From NCBI RefSeq assembly GCF_011059105.1, contig NZ_JAALLS010000014.1:1-64000 (forward strand): a stretch of 64,000 bases of DNA, written 5' to 3'. Every line of letters starts with the position of its first letter. Position 1 is the first letter of the stretch. Made by a program: the position numbers and the translations under genes. Below are positions 9,302-64,000 of the stretch, in pieces. The stretch is from Fodinibius halophilus. GTDB lineage: Bacteria > Bacteroidota > Rhodothermia > Balneolales > Balneolaceae. The notes under the pieces were generated by a model, which saw only the letters and a list, made by a program, of their open reading frames with translations, did no database searches and had not been told where the DNA came from.

Positions 9302-9530
9302 CTTTTAATAGCACCTTAGAGGAATTGAAATTTAACTAATGACGCTATATCCCCACCGCTGTAATTCTTTTAATAGCACCTTAGAGGAATTGAAATCTCA
9401 TTAGTGAGCTCTTGTAATAAGGGCCGCCCGGGCTACTTTTAATAGCACCTTACAGGAATTGAAATTAATTCCTAATTCGTAATTTATAATTTTTAATTAA
9501 CTCTTAATAGCAGCTTGTAGGAATGGAAAC
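9302..9530 (+). CRISPR. Short, decaying CRISPR array (four repeats, three spacers)
   Basis: A 30-bp repeat of the form CTTTTAATAGCACC...GAATTGAAAT starts at 9302, 9367, 9436 and 9501. The first two copies are identical, the third has one change, and the fourth has about six. Intervals are 65, 69 and 65 bases, giving spacers of 35, 39 and 35. The 3' end ATTGAAAT resembles repeats of type I-B/III systems. Decay towards the right suggests that the leader side is on the left. The third spacer is very AT-rich and resembles nearby sequence at 9578-9612, so that part may not be a true spacer. A further partial match (CAATAGCACC at 9621) lies beyond it. No cas gene is in the window. Confidence 0.75.
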
Positions 9531-9685
9531 TGCTTTTACGGTCGTCAGCCGTCGGTTAACGGATCCATGAAGCTGGAATTAATTTTTAATTCGTAATTGA
9601 TAATTTTTCATTGTCATTTACAATAGCACCGTAAAAAAATAAGAGTAAGTACGGACGCACTATAGCACGCCCGTACGTTAATCTT

Positions 9686-22060: not shown

Positions 22061-22070
22061 TGTTACTATA

Positions 22071-22234
22071 GGGCTTTGCAAAACTAGTCACCTCTTGTCA
22101 TGCTGTCCACCGGCTGGCGGATCAGCATCTCATATACCTGTTATTAGCATTAAAACTGAGATCCTGAACTGATTACTACGCCAAGGCTTCGTAGCACAGG
22201 TTCAGGATGACATGCTGGGTTTGGTAAAGCTCCC
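22071..22234. mobile_element. MITE-like element, 164-bp variant
   Basis: Bounded by GGGCTTTGCAAAAC on the left and the inverted GTTTGGTAAAGCTCCC on the right, and flanked by perfect 7-bp direct repeats TACTATA (22064-22070 and 22235-22241). The ends match the 127-bp elements at 36236, 51055 and 63718, but the interior is different and contains its own hairpin. No coding sequence. The left flank lies 4 bases after the M14 peptidase stop codon. Confidence 0.82.
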
Positions 22235-22241
22235 TACTATA

Positions 22242-22785
22242 ATTCTTCTTGTTTCGATGCTCTGGGTTGGCTTGATATTTTGGGTAAGCTCCCATCTCTC
22301 GTCGGACGGCTGGGGTTGCCGTCCGGCGAATAGATACCATGGCAGGCGTTGATTTAAAAGTTTAAAAGCAGTCTCCCTTTCTTAGTCCGCGTAATATCGA
22401 AAAGGCAATAAAAAATCTTCCTTGTGGCACTAAGGATGAAAGAATTGGTAGTGTAAACGGAAGGAGGTGCAGCTATGCGCCTCGAAGTTTTAACGTAGTG
22501 GCGGAGGATGGTCACTTTTGTATTGTTTCGATGCTTTAGCGGTAGTTGGCTCTGCGTCGGACCGAACTTCTCACCATGTGTGTGAATTCTTTCAGTCAAG
22601 AAAAACAAACACCTACATCTTGCCTCATTCCCAAAGCCAATAGTTAGTATATTTTTCAGCTTTTTGCTTTCCCACCTAACGAGGGCTTACCCCATCCGTC
22701 GAGGGAAAGCGGTAATTTATATATCTTATCTTTTGAAACTTCCGCGATAGGCCCTTATCTTTGGGCGCATTCTAACTATACCCAA
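22242..22785. other. Intergenic region upstream of the TPP riboswitch
   Basis: About 540 bp. It has a GGACGGC...GCCGTCC hairpin near 22298-22323 and no reading frame I would call. The last part must contain the promoter for the riboswitch-controlled receptor. Confidence 0.45.
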
Positions 22786-22862
22786 GGTTGGGGGTGCTTG
22801 CAATAGCAGGCTGAGATCATACCCTGAGAACCTGAACCGATTAAGATCGGCGTAGGGAAACC
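22786..22862 (+). promoter_or_regulatory. TPP riboswitch (THI element)
   Basis: A canonical thiamine-pyrophosphate aptamer. GGGGGTGC and GCAGGCTGAGA form the pyrimidine-sensing arm, followed by ACCCTGAGAACCTGAACCGA, then GATCGGCGTAGGGAA. The closing P1 stem can form from GGTT (22786-22789) and AACC (22859-22862). TPP binding represses the downstream gene in this family. It sits 108 bp before the start of a TonB-dependent receptor, making that receptor a likely thiamine or thiamine-precursor importer. Confidence 0.96.
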
Positions 22863-22932
22863 ATGGCAGCGGTAGTGCTCCAAATATTGGTGTACGCTTC
22901 TGCCGGATTGATCAGCATTTCTTGCAAGTTCA

Positions 22933-36066: not shown

Positions 36067-36235
36067 CAAATATAGTCATGGTTAGGTATTGTTACCCATG
36101 GTTAGGCGCTTAGCACCAATATATAAGCCTTTTTGTTATTTAATAAGCAAAACTTGTTTATAAAGGGGTATTTACTGTTCTCTGTGCTCTATTTGGACTA
36201 ATGGCTGTTATTTGAAATAAATTAACTGTATCCCA

Positions 36236-36362
36236 GGGACCTTTGCAAAACCAGGCAATCATCCTGAATGTAATGAAGGATCTCCCTTTCAACGGCAGCA
36301 GATGGATACTGGAGATTCTTCGACAAGCTCAGAATGACGAAATCAAAGGTTTTGCAAAGCCC
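36236..36362. mobile_element. MITE-like element, 127 bp, with 7-bp target duplication
   Basis: Ends GGGACCTTTGCAAAACC on the left and GGTTTTGCAAAGCCC on the right form terminal inverted repeats. Perfect 7-bp direct repeats TATCCCA flank it (36229-36235 and 36363-36369). The interior is itself roughly palindromic (CTGAATGTAATGAAGGATCT against GATTCTTCGACAAGCTCAGA). It is nearly identical to the copies at 51055-51181 (inverted) and 63718-63844 (same orientation). No coding capacity. Confidence 0.88.
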
Positions 36363-36369
36363 TATCCCA

Positions 36370-45900: not shown

Positions 45901-48900
45901 AAGCTACGGGCTCCGTGACCCCGGGTGCCGCAGTGAGATCACCGTCATTGTTTTTATCTTCTCTTGAAACCGTTACCTCATATGTTTTGGTGCTTCCGTC
46001 TTCGGCCGTTACAATGACATTGACCGTATTTGAACCATAACTTAGCGGTATGGGATTAGAAGCCTGACCGCTGGGTACTACTAGCCCATTAACCGTAACG
46101 GTGGCATTGTCGTCAGCAAGGGTAGGGGAAGTGGTAACGGAGGTGACGCTTGCTGGGACCGAAACCGTATAATTTGTAGTATTGGAGGCGAAGGTCGGAT
46201 TGGGGGTGCCATTAGAGAATGAAAGCGCCGATAGGTTTTTATTTTGGCTCAATACATATTTTCCGGGAGGTGGATCCTGGGCCGTTGACTGCAGGTACGG
46301 GTACGAGATGGTGCCGCTAGATGGCTTTTCGATCTGCCAAGTTGAGCTGAAATCCCATCCCGCTGCGGTGAAAGTTGTTTGATCTTTCATCTCGGAAGTG
46401 GGCTTTCCGGTTCCTCCGGCACTGGTAGCATAGCTGCTGGTTTCGGTATCCCAAAAAGAGTTTGTGATATCCTTTTCAGAAGCTTGGTTACGGCCAATAA
46501 AACCACCCACATCTGTTTGCTGGGATGTATTGTAACTTATCTTAGCCGTTGAAAATGATTTATCTACCGAGCCATTGCTGGTGTTAGTACCAATAAGTCC
46601 TCCGACATATTGTTGTGTGGCGGTTACATCCCCAAGAACATAGGACTGATTAATACTGCCTCCATTTTTACCAACCAAACCACCAGTGTTATTAGCTCCG
46701 TTGATGGTTCCTGTGGCATAAGATTGGGTTACTGTCCCGTTTTGCAGTTGCCCAACCAGCCCGCCGGTATTTAAAAGCCCCTCAATACTTCCTGCTACAG
46801 ATACCGTTTGAATAGTACCACTACTTTGACCAGATAAAATGCCGACGAAATGCTGACCTGTTATATCAGCGTTTTGAATAGTCAGCTCTTTGAGGCTTCC
46901 ACTTATTTTTGCAAATAACCCTACATGCTGGGTGTTATTTGTTGATGTTTTTTCGATTGTCAGGTTGCTAATAGTGTGGCTATTTCCATTATACTGGCCG
47001 CTAAATGCCGTTGAGTTTGCACCATCAGAACCGGTATCCCAGCCAATGGGGTCCCAGTTGGTGTAGCCGGATAAGTCAATATCGGCAGTCTGGATAAAAT
47101 AGTTATCAAGGAAGTCTCGTACTTCATTAAGTTGGTCAGCCGTAGCTACCTGGTAAGGGTTTGCTTGCGTGCCGCTGCCACCGGCAAAAGGAGAAGCGAC
47201 GAGGCTGAAAGCATTTTGTGCAGCTGTGCCGGCCACGTTTCCGTCATTAGGGGTGATCTCAAAACGGATGTATTTATGGGCATCGTCGGGAGCCAGCGTA
47301 TAGGTTTGGGCAGTGGCTCCGGCAATAGCTATCTGGTTAGTGCCAGAGGCATCGTCGGCCCGGTACCATTGGTAGGTACTGCCACTTTCGGTATCTCCGT
47401 CGCGGTCGCTAAAGTCGTAACTGCTGGTAAGTTCTTGGCCAACAATCATGGAGCCGGAGAAGGTAACATTTGCAACGGTTGGAGTATTATTGTTTTTGTA
47501 GATTAGGCTCTGGATAGTACTCCCATCGGTGCCGGCAATGATCAGGTCGAGGTCACCGTCGTTGTCAAAATCGCCCAGATCGGCCGCGCCATTGATAACC
47601 CCGGTAAGTCCGGCGCTAATGTTAGAAAAGTTGCTATTTTCATTTTCGTAAATGAGGCTTTGCGAATTGTTCCCGTCGTTACCGGTGATGAGTAGGTCAA
47701 GATCACCGTCACCGTCTAGGTCACCCCAGTTAACAGAGCTGTTATATACTCCGGTAAGACCGGCATTGATGGTGGAGAAGGTGCCGTCTCCATTATTTTC
47801 GTAAATAAGACTTTGGAGACTGCCACTGCTATTGTCACCAGTGAGGATGAGGTCGAGATCACCGTCACCGTCAAAGTCGCCCCATTCGCCGTCGCCAATA
47901 CCAATTCCGGTGAGTCCAGCGCCGAGTTTGGAGAAGCTGCCGCCGTCATTTTCATAAATAAAGCTTTGGGGACCACTGCCATCACTGCCGGTGATGAGTA
48001 GGTCAAGATCGCCGTCGCCGTCGAAATCTCCCCAGTCGGCGGAGCCATGCTGGAGCCCGGTGAGTCCGGCACCGATAGTGGAAAAGCTGCCGCCGTTATT
48101 TTCATAAATAAGGCTTTGGGGACCAACGCCATTATTACCGGTGATGGCCAGGTCGAGGTCACCGTCGCCGTCAAAATCTCCCCAGTCGGCCGAACTAGCA
48201 AAGAGGCCGGTAAGGCCGGCCCCGATGTCAGAGAAGGTGCCATCGCCATTATTTTCGTAGATGAGGCTTTTTGGACTGGTGCCATCGTCGCCTGTGATGA
48301 CTAGATCGAGGTCGTCGTCGCCGTCAAAGTCGCCCCACTTAGCTGAGCCTCGGGAGAGCCCGGTAAGCCCGGCATTGATATCGGTGAAGGTGCCGTCACC
48401 GTTATTTCGATATATGAGGCTTTGAGGGCCGCTGCCATTATTGCCGGTAATAGCGATGTCGAGGTCGCCGTCATTATCAAAGTCGCCCCAATCAGCTGAA
48501 CTTTCATAGACGTTGGTGAGCCCGGCCGAGACTTCAATAAAATTGTCGCCACCGCGGTCCACAATGCTGAAGAGATCGGTAGTGGTTGCATTGGTGCCAT
48601 CGTAAGCTCGTTGTACTTTAATATGGTATTGCCCGGCCTCCAGACCTGACGGAACTGTGGTGGTGAGAATACCGCCCGTCAGCCCGGTTGGGGGAGCAGT
48701 GGTACCGCTTCCGCCGCCTGCGGGTACAAAGGTAGTGGTATGGTCAGAGGCGTTGGGGTCAAAACCGCTTCCCAGGATATCTACTTCGGTGCCCGGGGCC
48801 CCGGAAGACTGTTGGGTACCGGTAAGTTGCAAATCACTTGGTTGAACCTGTTGGAAGGTACTCTTCCCGGCTGTGCCGGCCACGTTTCCGTCATTGGGGA

Positions 48901-50611
48901 TGACCTCAAACCGGATATGTTTTCTGGCATCATTAGAGGTGAGAGTATAGGTTTGACCATTAGCACCGGTAATGGCTGTTTCGTTAGTGCCGCTGGTATC
49001 GTCGGCCCGGTACCATTGGTAGGTACTGCCACTTTCGGTATCTCCATCTTGGTCAGTATAGTCATAGTTGCCGATAAGTTGTTGGCCGATATCTAGGGAG
49101 CCGGAGATAGTAATATTTGCAGCAGAGGGGGCATTGTTGTTTTCATAAATCAGGCTTTGGAAGCCATTGTCACCATTGCCATTGACGGCTATGTCAAGGT
49201 CGCCGTCGCCGTCAAAATCGCCCCAGTCTGATGACCCTCGATATAGTCCGGTAATTCCAGCGCCCATGTCTGAGAAGTTACCATTGCCGTTGTTTTTGTA
49301 GATTATTTGGGCGCCATTGAAACCACCTGTAATGATGAGATCCAGGTCACCATCACCATCATAATCGCCCCAGTTTGATGAACCTCGAGATAGTCCTGTA
49401 AGTCCGGCGCCGATATCAGTGAAGGTGCCATTGCCATTGTTTTCGTAGATAAGACTTTGATCGTTATTATTGTTATCGAGGCCCGTGATGAGCAGGTCGA
49501 GGTCACTGTCATTGTCAAAGTCACCCCAGTTCGCTGCTCCAGTGCTGAGACCTGTGAGGCCGGCGCCAATATCTGAGAAGTTGCCATTCCCATCATTTTC
49601 ATAAATCAGGCTTTGGTAAGTGCCGCTGTTAAGGTAACCGATAATGAGGAGATCGAGGTCGCCGTCACCATCGTAATCACCCCAGTCTGCTGAGCTGAGT
49701 AAGACTTTGGTGATTCCTGCACCGATAGGAGAAAAATTACCGTTCCCATTATTTTCGTAGATCAGGCTTTGGGGGGCATAACTGTTATCTGCACCGGTGA
49801 TGAGGAGGTCAAGATCGCCATCGCCGTCAAAATCGCCCCAGTCTGATGACCCTCGAAATAGTCCTGTAAGTCCTGCATTGATGTTTGAAAAATTACCGCT
49901 TCCGTCATTTTCATAGATTAGGCTGCGCGGGACATCATTAATATCCATGCCAGTAATGATGAGATCCAGGTCACCGTCATTATCGTAATCGCCCCAGTTG
50001 GCCGAGCTGTACTGGAGCCCGGTGAGTCCGGCTCCTATAGTGGAAAAGCTACCGTCGTCATTTTCATAAATAAAGCTTTGGGGTCCACTGCCATTACGCC
50101 CGGTCATTAGTAGGTCGAGGTCCCCATCCCCGTCGTAATCGCCCCAGTCCATAGCGCTGCGAAAGAGTCCGGTAAGTCCTGCCCCAATGTCGAAGAAATT
50201 ATCTCCGCCACGATCCACCACGTTATACAGATCCGTTGTGGTGGCGGTTATCCCGTCGGAGGCCCGTTGTAACTGAATATGATAGGGACCCGCAGCCAGC
50301 CCTGCTGGTACGTGAGCAGTAATGATGTTGCCGGTGAGCCTGGTTGGATTAGCTGTTGTTCCAGCCCCTCCGCCAACCGGTATAAAAGTAATGGTATGGT
50401 CGGAGGCATTTGCATCGAAACCGCTGCCCATGATATCTACTTTGGTGCCCGGGGCCCCGGACGATTGCTGGGTGCTGCTGACAGTAAGCTGGCCCAGGCT
50501 AATATGGGATAGCCCAAGCAGCATCAGTAGGAGGATGCCCAGGCATTTAATGAGACGTTGTTTCTTAACGGACTGCTGTTTCACGAGACTGTTTGTCTTA
50601 GGTATTTGCAT
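42953..50611 (-). CDS. Giant type IX-secreted multidomain surface protein
   Basis: 2552 residues. A signal peptide ends near LGQ (about 40). Two near-duplicate modules follow (about 40-580 and 587-1130). Each has an IPT/TIG-like domain (QQSSGAPGT, GSGFD), seven VCBS/FG-GAP repeats of the form WGDxDGDGDLDLLITG, and an Ig-like domain (YQWYRADD, IRFEV). Then come a GLUG region (about 1150-1400), a cadherin-like sandwich (about 1460-1550), sandwich domains to about 1835, three fibronectin-III-like domains (about 1840-2110) and a globular part with GKGYWVLSK and GWNIISTPFN. The C-terminus carries the sorting domain LNQNYPNPFNPQTTIRFGLN ... TYFYRI ending ITKKMTLIK. It is expected to be secreted and anchored for adhesion or binding. 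The ligand is unknown. Confidence 0.93.
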   Translation of the reverse strand: MQIPKTNSLVKQQSVKKQRLIKCLGILLLMLLGLSHISLGQLTVSSTQQSSGAPGTKVDIMGSGFDANASDHTITFIPVGGGAGTTANPTRLTGNIITAHVPAGLAAGPYHIQLQRASDGITATTTDLYNVVDRGGDNFFDIGAGLTGLFRSAMDWGDYDGDGDLDLLMTGRNGSGPQSFIYENDDGSFSTIGAGLTGLQYSSANWGDYDNDGDLDLIITGMDINDVPRSLIYENDGSGNFSNINAGLTGLFRGSSDWGDFDGDGDLDLLITGADNSYAPQSLIYENNGNGNFSPIGAGITKVLLSSADWGDYDGDGDLDLLIIGYLNSGTYQSLIYENDGNGNFSDIGAGLTGLSTGAANWGDFDNDSDLDLLITGLDNNNNDQSLIYENNGNGTFTDIGAGLTGLSRGSSNWGDYDGDGDLDLIITGGFNGAQIIYKNNGNGNFSDMGAGITGLYRGSSDWGDFDGDGDLDIAVNGNGDNGFQSLIYENNNAPSAANITISGSLDIGQQLIGNYDYTDQDGDTESGSTYQWYRADDTSGTNETAITGANGQTYTLTSNDARKHIRFEVIPNDGNVAGTAGKSTFQQVQPSDLQLTGTQQSSGAPGTEVDILGSGFDPNASDHTTTFVPAGGGSGTTAPPTGLTGGILTTTVPSGLEAGQYHIKVQRAYDGTNATTTDLFSIVDRGGDNFIEVSAGLTNVYESSADWGDFDNDGDLDIAITGNNGSGPQSLIYRNNGDGTFTDINAGLTGLSRGSAKWGDFDGDDDLDLVITGDDGTSPKSLIYENNGDGTFSDIGAGLTGLFASSADWGDFDGDGDLDLAITGNNGVGPQSLIYENNGGSFSTIGAGLTGLQHGSADWGDFDGDGDLDLLITGSDGSGPQSFIYENDGGSFSKLGAGLTGIGIGDGEWGDFDGDGDLDLILTGDNSSGSLQSLIYENNGDGTFSTINAGLTGVYNSSVNWGDLDGDGDLDLLITGNDGNNSQSLIYENENSNFSNISAGLTGVINGAADLGDFDNDGDLDLIIAGTDGSTIQSLIYKNNNTPTVANVTFSGSMIVGQELTSSYDFSDRDGDTESGSTYQWYRADDASGTNQIAIAGATAQTYTLAPDDAHKYIRFEITPNDGNVAGTAAQNAFSLVASPFAGGSGTQANPYQVATADQLNEVRDFLDNYFIQTADIDLSGYTNWDPIGWDTGSDGANSTAFSGQYNGNSHTISNLTIEKTSTNNTQHVGLFAKISGSLKELTIQNADITGQHFVGILSGQSSGTIQTVSVAGSIEGLLNTGGLVGQLQNGTVTQSYATGTINGANNTGGLVGKNGGSINQSYVLGDVTATQQYVGGLIGTNTSNGSVDKSFSTAKISYNTSQQTDVGGFIGRNQASEKDITNSFWDTETSSYATSAGGTGKPTSEMKDQTTFTAAGWDFSSTWQIEKPSSGTISYPYLQSTAQDPPPGKYVLSQNKNLSALSFSNGTPNPTFASNTTNYTVSVPASVTSVTTSPTLADDNATVTVNGLVVPSGQASNPIPLSYGSNTVNVIVTAEDGSTKTYEVTVSREDKNNDGDLTAAPGVTEPVALRSTVNTKTESLDIFDFNLVDGGSDDGLPLGITAIELHVSGTADPNKITFSLNGPDTTNVTGTFDSNASTLTFSGLSLSISEGGSEVYTVDAHYSATTGLTDGQTIILSVDGDSDLTVDGTGTQMGKTTTINNGIGSTTAVEATQLVFTTQPSDFVSGSPLATPPAITAQDVFGNTDTDFSQAVELTLTDANGTLNSISSNNDEDSSIKQATATLIKGTVTFSGLTFDYVTPNFSEETIAINVSAQGLPGTKSDPIIAKSAIPDKVLLANPGKATVNISLLPTLQWQKPYGAKSYELQLATNSTFSADKLIIDYSGIQDTTHHIQNKLQNATTYYWRVRASNSTGNSKWSETFKFSTIPDVPAKPTLQAPEDGKNNIILTPQLQWQAVDNATTYKVEISQGGNFSAPVAQTETTSLSFTPKASLHHATSYSWRVQAINVGGNSNWAGPYEFMTKSISPTLAFPTNNENKISIAPTLSWNSDYQDGKYRLQLATDSQMQELVLDSLVSAKKLSVAGLQSGSTYYWRVRTESPSTSNWSSPDQFQTRGAEQLQLSTEITFDTSTGSRGSDEKWDSYDYQLIGLPVAKSIPVEQLFDGEYGTEWKVFEDDGTQKDFLHEHTQDNPLSFTTGKGYWVLSKKPLKINEQQPPVPVSKNDTYAITLTPGWNIISTPFNRSVNWQQVQTFNGLSTNLYNYEGSYLNSKKMDPFKAYYVYNDKNTDVMLSVPYTSLDKREPPTKKELAKKANPQKVNITITSKRQQTNTLLSIRYVDDLPRQKEVTRYYPPLQLSKFGAAFINKDNRNRNRLLQTVGDTYEQEKNHYQIEVKSSPQDLLTWKVHMSGLEQSTSVLIVDSEEGRTKILNHDQEYNFITGNGKKTFDIYTGSENILKGIAESLAPQQITLNQNYPNPFNPQTTIRFGLNKKADVQLAVYDILGRKIHTLIDENRSAGWYEIPFDGSRLASGTYFYRIVIGQQVITKKMTLIK
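47490..48540 (-). repeat. VCBS repeat array, module B (seven units)
   Basis: Seven tandem units of about 150 bp within the giant gene, each encoding (N/T)FSxIxAGLTGxxxxSxDWGDFDGDGDLDLxITG (one unit per propeller blade). The unit order parallels module A at 49150-50200, about 1660 bp away, indicating an internal duplication. Confidence 0.85.
49150..50200 (-). repeat. VCBS repeat array, module A (seven units)
   Basis: Seven tandem units of about 150 bp with the same WGDxDGDGDLDLL core, preceded by the IPT/TIG domain at the N-terminus. Seven units are the right number for one closed beta-propeller. The duplicate is at 47490-48540. Confidence 0.85.
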
Positions 50612-51054
50612 GGGGGGGCAGAATAGTGATACTTGTTAAAATGAAACGGGGTACAAGACAGTGGGGATGGGATATTGCCGGGTAATTCGACAGGTATTAA
50701 CATTTAAACTGCTTTGCTGTCTATAAGTTATAGAACAGCAGCGACGAAATGCATAATGCCATTAATTTGGGCATTGTAATTCTCCAATATCCACTGACTA
50801 TTATTTAATGTATGTGATATTTTGTGATAAACGGGCTGTTTCGCACTACGAATCAGATCAGTAAATGGCCCTTTTTTGAGCTAAAAATGTAAGCCAATCT
50901 CTCTTGATCAGGAAGTAAAAATGCGAACGGACCGGCTATGTTAATAGCTTTTAATGTTTGGTATGGCAAGAGATGGTAATGCAGAGTAAGCCTCTGTCAA
51001 TGTAGGGGGGGATTATCTATGGTTTTATTGAGGAAAACTCGAATAATTAATAGA
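50612..51054. other. Promoter and intergenic region upstream of the giant gene
   Basis: No gene. It must hold the promoter of the giant operon. It includes the duplicated 3' flank of the AraC gene (50912-50939 and around 51003), interrupted on its right by a miniature element. Confidence 0.55.
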
Positions 51055-51181
51055 GGGCTTTGCAAAACCTTTGATTTCGTCATTCTGAGCTTGTCGAAGA
51101 ATCTCCAGTATCCATCTGCTGCCGTTGAAAGGGAGATCCTTCATTACATTCAGGATGACTGCCTGGTTTTGCAAAGGTCCC
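51055..51181. mobile_element. MITE-like element, 127 bp (inverted orientation)
   Basis: Same 127-bp element as at 36236-36362 and 63718-63844, here in the opposite orientation: it starts GGGCTTTGCAAAACC and ends GGTTTTGCAAAGGTCCC. Flanks are TAATAGA on the left and TAATAAC on the right, an imperfect trace of a 7-bp duplication. It lies in the duplicated 3' flank of the second AraC gene, where the first copy has no element. Confidence 0.87.
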
Positions 51182-51202
51182 TAATAACGAATTGAACTAA
51201 TT

Positions 51203-53821: not shown

Positions 53822-54404
53822 GGTCGGTTCTATTGGTTATCAGTTGTAGTTGCAAAAAATATCATCGTAGTTGGGGAGGGAAGGCCGGAGCCGTGGTTAA
53901 AATTACTATGTTGTGAGTTTCTTGATGGTATGCCTGTTGCAAATTTTATAATCATCTTGCACGTGTTTTATTTAATGGCCGTCATTATATCCACTATAGG
54001 TTATCGGCAAAACCGAAATTTTGTTAAGGCCTGGATCAGGTGAATACATTTTTTAATGATCTTTTTTGGGGATTTATTAATGGGTAATCTGAATTCAATT
54101 AGCGAGTGTAACATGAAGGAGTTCTCCGGGAGATTTACTGAGGTCTCTCGTCAAGTGGTTTATATTATTTTGGTATATCCGAAAAAAACACTGAGATCAG
54201 CTAACAGGTGGTTCCAGTGCTTTAGTAATAACGCTTAAATTATCATCAGAAAATTCTCTTCTTTATGAAAAAAGAGGCCAAGATACGGTGCAAGACCAGG
54301 GGATTGGCAACCACCCCTAACCCCTCCTTGATAAGGAGGGGAATTTTGTAGCTGAGATGTAAAACTAATAGCACAATATATTTAAACAGGGCGCTATATC
54401 TTAT
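53822..54404. other. Gene-poor region
   Basis: About 580 bp with several short open frames, none with recognisable features. At 54312-54342 there is a CCCCTCCTTGATAAGGAGGGG hairpin (one base more than one turn of stem), the same kind of short repeat as CCCCCTTCGAAGGGGG near 57553. Confidence 0.4.
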
Positions 54405-54792
54405 TGTTGCTGTAGCCAATGGAGATGGCACATTTATTTCTCCTCCTCATGAAGGAGGAGACTAAGAGGAGGTTGAAAATAACGGGAGTTATGCTGCCAA
54501 CAGTCGAAAATCCTACACCTTCACTGCCGGCATGTTGCCCCACTCCTGTCCTCTCCCTACTGTTCGCAGGGAGAGGGACGCTTATCTACAATATGTGCTG
54601 GGTTTAAATGCGTGTATCCTTTTAGAGACACTCAGTTTAATTTCCAGCTGAATACTCAATAAAAAAGTCTCTTCCCCGATGTGTAGGGGAAGAACAAGAT
54701 GGGGTCAGAACCAACTCAATACTCACACTCTCAAAGTCTCACATCTCGTAGGCGAAGAACAAGATAGGGTCAGAAAATAGCAGCCAACCAAA
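54405..54792. repeat. Dispersed intergenic repeat, copy 2
   Basis: Related to 171-497 over the whole length, with the blocks in the same order: gatggcacatttatttctcc, the CTCCTCCTCATGAAGGAGGAG hairpin, CTCTCCCTACTGTTCGCAGG, and GTCTCTTCCCC...GGGGAAGAAC. The last block is present twice here (about 54665 and about 54735), an internal tandem duplication absent from copy 1. Confidence 0.75.
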
Positions 54793-63570: not shown

Positions 63571-63717
63571 TGTCATCCAATTATAGTATTCATCAAAACC
63601 ATGCATTATAAATATAATTAAATTATAAGCAACAATGTTGCACCCTTTTCTCGAAGAGATAGCGGAGAGTTTTGGGGGCAGTGAGGAATACTAAGGTTGA
63701 CGGAAACTAATTTTGAA

Positions 63718-63844
63718 GGGACCTTTGCAAAACCAGGCAGTCATTCTGAATGTAATGAAGGATCTCCCTTTCAACGACAGCAGATGGATACTGGAGATTC
63801 TTCGACAAGCTCAGAATGACGAAATCAAAGGTTTTGCAAAGCGC
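63718..63844. mobile_element. MITE-like element, 127 bp
   Basis: Third near-identical copy of the 127-bp element, oriented as at 36236. Ends GGGACCTTTGCAAAACC and GGTTTTGCAAAGCGC (one or two changes at the right end). Flanks TTTTGAA on the left and CTTTGAA on the right (after one extra base) are a possible imperfect duplication. Confidence 0.87.
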
Positions 63845-63948
63845 TCTTTGAAATTGGTGCTTGTTCTCACAGGATTAATACTACTGAGAAATTAGGTTTG
63901 TGTAAAAATTAATATAAGGGAGGGGCAGGGAGGCTCGGATATTTTTAA

Positions 63949-64000
63949 GAGATCTTTGCAAAACCTCCAGTTTTCAGCCCGTCATTGCGAGTGCAGCGAA
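63949..64000. mobile_element. Left end of a further MITE-like element, cut by the window edge
   Basis: GAGATCTTTGCAAAACCTCC at the end of the window matches the left terminal repeat of the family, and the interior that follows (GTCATTGCGAGTG) differs from the 127-bp type. Only the left end is visible. Confidence 0.5.

Follow-up and report, generated by a model that had tools for sequence, protein, structure and literature searches.

REP-like hairpin pairs between IS5-type ends in a family of miniature transposons of Fodinibius halophilus

Published CGTC REPs consist of a tag, an 8-bp stem starting with AT and a 5-nt loop, and form head-to-head heterodimers; a survey of 2013 associates these widespread hairpins with no transposase genes, found no dedicated transposase for them and did not settle whether transposases of other kinds mobilize them (Di Nocera et al. 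2013, PMC3733652). All CGTC-1 dimers of Halothiobacillus neapolitanus lie within GGGaaGCTT-GAAAaACC palindromes, which were treated as targets (PMC3733652). REPINs are also dispersed, non-coding pairs of inverted REP hairpins with a spacer, but consist of GTAG-type REPs, and their mobility is ascribed to a tyrosine (Y1) transposase (PMC3116915). The ATR of Neisseria is a proposed MITE of ISNme1 that is often associated with repeats (REP2), and BrickBuilt of P. gingivalis contains a 23-nt minisatellite rather than a hairpin pair and has duplications of inconsistent length (PMC4596501). The family described here shares with CGTC REPs the CGTC/TGTC tag, the stem, the loop and the heterodimers, but its dimer lies between IS5-type ends with 5-bp duplications (PMC3733652). 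With ISNme1, ATR and BrickBuilt it shares an end of one type (GAGACCTTTGCAAAA there, GAGNNCTTTGCAAAAC here) and, with the latter two, the apparent status of a non-coding IS5-family derivative; its interior is unrelated to theirs, and it has at least 70 copies compared with 19 copies each (PMC4596501). Very probably, an IS5-type (NF033581) transposase moves these REP-dimer MITEs in trans into TNNNA sites.

The window, which is the whole analyzed stretch of 64,000 nucleotides of contig C6 in a draft genome of 91 contigs, contains members of two subfamilies, A and B (Table 1). The near-identical copies that an initial annotation had placed at 36236, 51055 and 63718, and the longer variant that it had placed at 22071, are present and have ends of the CTTTGCAAAACC type in common. 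Their length is 129 bp rather than 127 bp, because the second end had been set 2 bp short, and the variant measures 166 bp (22069-22234) rather than 164 bp (22071-22234). In the 36236 element the GAGGGC-type end is mutated to TAGGGC. The further left end noted at the window edge belongs to a fifth element of approximately 126 bp (C6:63949-64074), which continues beyond the window to contig position 64074 and has a partial 4-bp duplication, TTAA.

Table 1. Positions of the miniature elements, their target-site duplications (TSDs) and a REP-like hairpin in the window
Feature	Position	Strand	Basis or remark
Left 5-bp TSD TACTA	22064..22068	.	flank comparison
MITE subfamily B copy, 166 bp	22069..22234	+	extra sequence in apical loops of both hairpins
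Right TSD TACTA	22235..22239	.	flank comparison
Left 5-bp TSD TCCCA of 36236 element	36231..36235	.	sequence, offset test
MITE subfamily A, 129 bp	36236..36364	+	end GGGACCTTTGCAAAACC, inverted REP-like hairpin pair, GAGGGC-type end
REP-like hairpin GTCATTCTGAGCTTGTCGAAGAATCTC within 36236 element	36312..36338	-	partner at left on opposite strand
Right 5-bp TSD TCCCA of 36236 element	36365..36369	.	sequence
Left TSD TAATA	51048..51052	.	flank comparison
MITE subfamily A copy, 129 bp	51053..51181	-	similarity search and flanks
Right TSD TAATA	51182..51186	.	flank comparison
Left TSD TTTGAA, 6 bp	63712..63717	.	flank comparison
MITE subfamily A copy, 129 bp	63718..63846	+	similarity search and flanks
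Right TSD TTTGAA, 6 bp	63847..63852	.	flank comparison
Fifth element, left part	63949..64000	+	GAGATCTTTGCAAAACC, hairpin of CGTCATTGCGAG type

Other features of the window are a TPP riboswitch (22780-22875; RF00059, 61.9 bits) approximately 550 bp from the 22069 element; four degenerate direct repeats of CTTTTAATAGCACCTTAGAGGAATTGAAAT that are 65-69 bp apart and look like a small CRISPR array (9302-9541); long coding-type tandem repeats of approximately 150 bp, the copies of which have diverged (47223-50224); and a two-copy repeat with blocks that are 88-90% identical, partly purine-rich and palindromic, and 54 kb apart (165-475 and 54400-54708).

The family extends throughout the 4.19-Mb genome. 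With up to two mismatches, GGGNCNTTTGCAAAACC occurs six times in the window compared with 0.19 times expected, and the strict end pattern GRGNNCTTTGCAAAAC has 104 matches in the genome, compared with none for a reversed control pattern. A 127-bp query yielded 40 matches of 96-100% identity and 98 candidate places, and the second subfamily as a query yielded many further copies. Stretches around the matches provided 70 unique copies in which both ends could be read. Characterized copies number at least 70 over several subfamilies, and the family of the 36236 element includes no fewer than 40 near-identical copies of 129 bp. The 40 full-length copies of subfamily A have 0-4 differences per 129 positions from their own consensus, which indicates that the expansion was recent; this burst would have used an active transposase. 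The ends of the 129-bp element read GGGACC-TTTGC on one side and GAGGGC-TTTGC on the other, with terminal inverted repeats of the GRGNNCTTTGCAAAAC pattern at both. The initial annotation had noted no coding capacity, and the longest frames are indeed 42 amino acids in subfamily A and 29 in subfamily B. The characterized copies, 124-284 bp in size, are thus multicopy, non-coding and shorter than 300 bp: they are genuine MITEs, short non-coding miniature transposons. The proposal that the family derives from transposition and is defined by its ends, with palindromic interiors that differ, agrees with these results, the interiors of A and B being different pairs of hairpins.

The length of the target duplication was determined by an offset test. 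Each end was set to start six bases before TTTGCAAAAC, and random pairing of the left flank of one copy with the right flank of another served as the control. Exact duplications of 5 bp are present in 45 of 70 copies (control mean 2.03) and of 6 bp in nine (control mean 0.49), so that 54 of 70 copies have an exact duplication of one length or the other, versus approximately 2.5 by chance. The 5-bp sites have the form TNNNA, with T first in 42 of 45 and A last in 43 of 45. Duplications of 7 bp, as proposed in the initial annotation, are rejected by this genome-wide test: none of the 70 copies has one at the defined ends (control mean 0.05). As strings of letters, the 7-bp repeats TATCCCA and TACTATA are present, but two of the seven bases in each belong to the element itself, as the TA of its mutated terminus, and the two cases are 5-bp duplications, TCCCA and TACTA, extended by this chance TA. 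Thus, the restriction that 7-bp duplications had been thought to place on possible parents is also wrong, and an IS5-family match has a 5-bp duplication. The lack of 7-bp duplications at most copies, which had been named as grounds for abandoning transposition, is real, but transposition stands, with 5-bp duplications instead. One chimera (L107 1418-1604, G000:C34), in which a B arm is joined to an A arm, lacks a duplication, which is what recombination between two copies would leave.

No transposase with such ends is located in the window, as had been noted; the candidate parent lies on other contigs. A search of the genome for the DDE families PF01609 and PF13340 found five DDE_Tnp_1 genes, two of which belong to copies of one element (L059 on contig C15, L060 on contig C41). 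Both copies are 1,278 bp long and 83% identical to each other; their ends are GGGAGCTTTGCAGAACC and GGGGGCTTTG (also given as GGGAGCTTTGCAGAACCCCC and GGGGGCTTTGAATTAC), and they are flanked by the duplications TATTA and TTAAA. A full-length insertion sequence of the kind for which a genome-wide search had been recommended exists; its ends match those of the MITEs, and its duplication is 5 bp long. Subfamily B matches one end of this element at 17 of 18 bases and the other at 10 of 10, and keeps its asymmetry. The transposase scores 240 bits against the IS5-family model NF033581 (cut-off 140), has the Pfam domains DUF772 and DDE_Tnp_1, and has D161, D248 and E298 in positions that are invariant across six aligned transposases. 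The MITEs have ends in common with an autonomous-type IS5 element of the same genome, which resembles the IS5 family (NF033581, transpos_IS5_4) in its two domains, its GRGNNCTTTG-type ends and its short AT-rich duplication, but apparently differs in that the duplication here is 5 bp of the form TNNNA, sometimes 6 bp. In classical IS5 subgroups the duplication is usually given as 2-4, 8 or 9 bp. The GC content of the element is 56% compared with 44% for the window, which is consistent with recent arrival. L060 is frameshifted near its start, and L059 has ATC at the position of the L060 start codon ATG, its frame remaining open; both copies look damaged, and an intact copy may be absent from the draft. 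The MITE ends and the ends of the insertion sequence differ at CAAAAC/CAGAAC, and one end of the latter has no CAAAAC part, so that the MITEs may descend directly from a closely related element outside the assembly. A second candidate, a supposed full-length element at C4:131546-133436 with facing ends 1.9 kb apart, was rejected as two separate MITEs around ordinary genes.

In the mechanism proposed, a DDE transposase of the IS5 family (NF033581 type) would recognize the two ends of approximately 17 bp (GRGNNCTTTGCAAAACC) and insert the MITEs in trans at T-NNN-A sites, most of which lie between genes, with a target duplication of 5 bp or sometimes 6 bp. The cargo is not a shrunken transposase gene but two REP-like hairpins of the CGTC/TGTC class arranged head to head; the composite presumably arose once the ends of an insertion sequence came to flank a REP dimer. 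Judging by the ends, the transposase was probably supplied by the L059/L060 element or by a near relative that is now lost. It is improbable that the mover was instead a small ISNme1-like IS5 element with ends of the form GAGACCTTTGCAAAA: the ends of ISNme1 and of BrickBuilt from Porphyromonas (PMC4596501) are nearer to GAGNCCTTTGCAAAA than those of the local element at CAAAAC/CAGAAC, but the genome has no small IS5 (PF13340) transposase, only the L059/L060 element among the five PF01609 matches has such ends, and subfamily B retains the GGGAGC/GGGGGC asymmetry of that element.

Ends of the same kind delimit related full-length elements in other genomes; related transposase loci that carry names come from Balneolales and Gracilimonas records. 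Five of the elements are flanked by duplications (ATTAA at L067, TTTTA at L129, AAATC at L135, GCTTC at L132 and TATATC at L128) with a measured length of 5 bp or, once, 6 bp. An exact duplication is absent at some others (three in G043 and one in L131). Genome G011, the other genome of the genus that is rich in such MITE ends, has a frameshifted copy of the insertion sequence, the best segment of which is 77% identical. Elsewhere in the genus, and in one other genus, there are MITEs with the same type of ends, with exact 5-bp duplications in 11 of 36 examined, and those of some relatives (G005, G007, G008) have REP-type interiors. A different MITE of 139-141 bp in G011 and G030 (L194-L233) has the same type of ends and a long unrelated palindrome inside. 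Units of approximately 40-50 bp that contain little besides two facing ends (L218 about 287-332 in G030; L208 about 290-330 in G011) are possibly deletion products.

The interiors of subfamilies A and B are different sequences with one architecture, namely two hairpins and a spacer with the tags outward, as in head-to-head dimers. The hairpins have the form (C/T)GTC-ATNCTGA...AT-CTC, and their loops can carry extra sequence, which accounts for the longer copies including 22069-22234. Those that read TGTC-ATGCTGAA-CTTGT-TTCAGCAT and TGTC-ATCCTGAA-CTTGT-TTCAGGAT agree with the published CGTC definition, having a CGTC/TGTC tag, a stem of 8-9 bp beginning with AT and a loop of 4-5 nt; at the position of the CCA tail, one A hairpin has ATCTCCA and B has ATCTCATA. 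On this sequence evidence, each palindromic interior consists of two REP hairpins, placed head to head, that fit the CGTC class. The hairpin pattern has 144 matches in the genome; among the hairpins listed, 25 lie outside characterized copies, two of them in decayed MITEs and 23 without ends. Relatives without MITE ends also have hairpins (12 in G003, 16 in G016 and 22 in G027). Thus, the hairpins exist independently of the MITEs.

If a RAYT-type enzyme had inserted REP dimers into pre-existing palindromes made of IS ends, the ends would be targets rather than vehicles, as the flanking palindromes in other species were termed by Di Nocera et al. (PMC3733652), and the genome does have eight RAYT-like Y1_Tnp genes (L186-L193). 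The duplications, however, lie outside the composite ends, which indicates that the whole unit moved, and ends and interior alike are common to the near-identical copies of subfamily A. A hairpin of the GTCATNCTGA type was found beside none of the eight Y1_Tnp genes, the only hairpins near one being those of an ordinary subfamily A copy approximately 0.5 kb from the gene of L189. A RAYT as the mover is rejected on these grounds, and the reading as a whole is unlikely; insertion by a RAYT into IS-end palindromes may nevertheless have been the origin of each founding composite. Identity with REPINs is rejected as well, the tag being CGTC/TGTC and not GTAG and linkage to a RAYT gene being absent. 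REPINs are also not known to have DDE-type terminal inverted repeats.

A search of the genus with the flanks of eight copies, joined as if the element were absent, showed several sites to be collinear and empty in G010. Many genomes have an empty site upstream of a ferredoxin gene; in an alignment of six genomes of the same genus, the element and one TAATA are missing there. At this site (L116 1504-1641; G000:C29:2711-2852), the MITE lies between a TAnnTTTG-like promoter and the ferredoxin start codon, and relatives are empty. The copies are mostly intergenic, the genes around them are tandem in 22 cases, convergent in eight and divergent in eight, with no orientation bias, and an Rfam search at the copies matched no family; this context fits selfish spread, and individual copies, for example that in the ferredoxin leader, have possibly been co-opted. 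The same data bear on the idea that the repeats are dispersed hairpins that function as RNA, either terminating transcription or stabilizing mRNA, and are kept by selection, the ends being incidental. The strong predicted folds (-48.6 kcal/mol for A and -51.8 kcal/mol for B) and the ferredoxin leader copy favor it, but the unbiased orientation of neighboring genes, the clean 5-bp duplications with empty sites and the lack of an Rfam match make it highly improbable, and functional RNAs with conserved flanking context, which the initial annotation had named as a contrary outcome, are not what the mixed gene orientation indicates. Slimmer still is the chance of a different insertion sequence with CTTTGCAAAAC ends, a 7-bp duplication and an absent parent, for which the literal 7-bp repeats at two window copies speak, but against which stand the offset test (0 of 70 with 7 bp, 54 with 5 or 6 bp) and the presence in the genome of an insertion sequence whose ends match and whose duplication is 5 bp.

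Two pattern scans of viral contigs for the composite gave only matches at chance level, with no duplications, and literature searches by the sequences of the ends or of the hairpins found nothing pertinent. The letters of the H. neapolitanus palindrome GGGaaGCTT-GAAAaACC resemble the ends described here (GGGGCCTTTGAAAAACC in L067), and by this resemblance the 'target palindrome' that surrounds CGTC dimers may be a transposon end of this kind. By analogy, IS5-family DDE transposases might be the general vehicle of CGTC REPs, the palindromes of other phyla being transposon ends, but this extension is tentative and more doubtful than the interpretation of the family in F. halophilus.

MITEs related to IS5 are ordinary; the notable point is that REP dimers appear as the cargo of IS5-type ends. 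The corrected length of the target duplication changes which parents are to be looked for. Movement by an IS5-type transposase would give a DDE enzyme a direct route by which to spread REPs, with a testable element and its probable enzyme in one genome.
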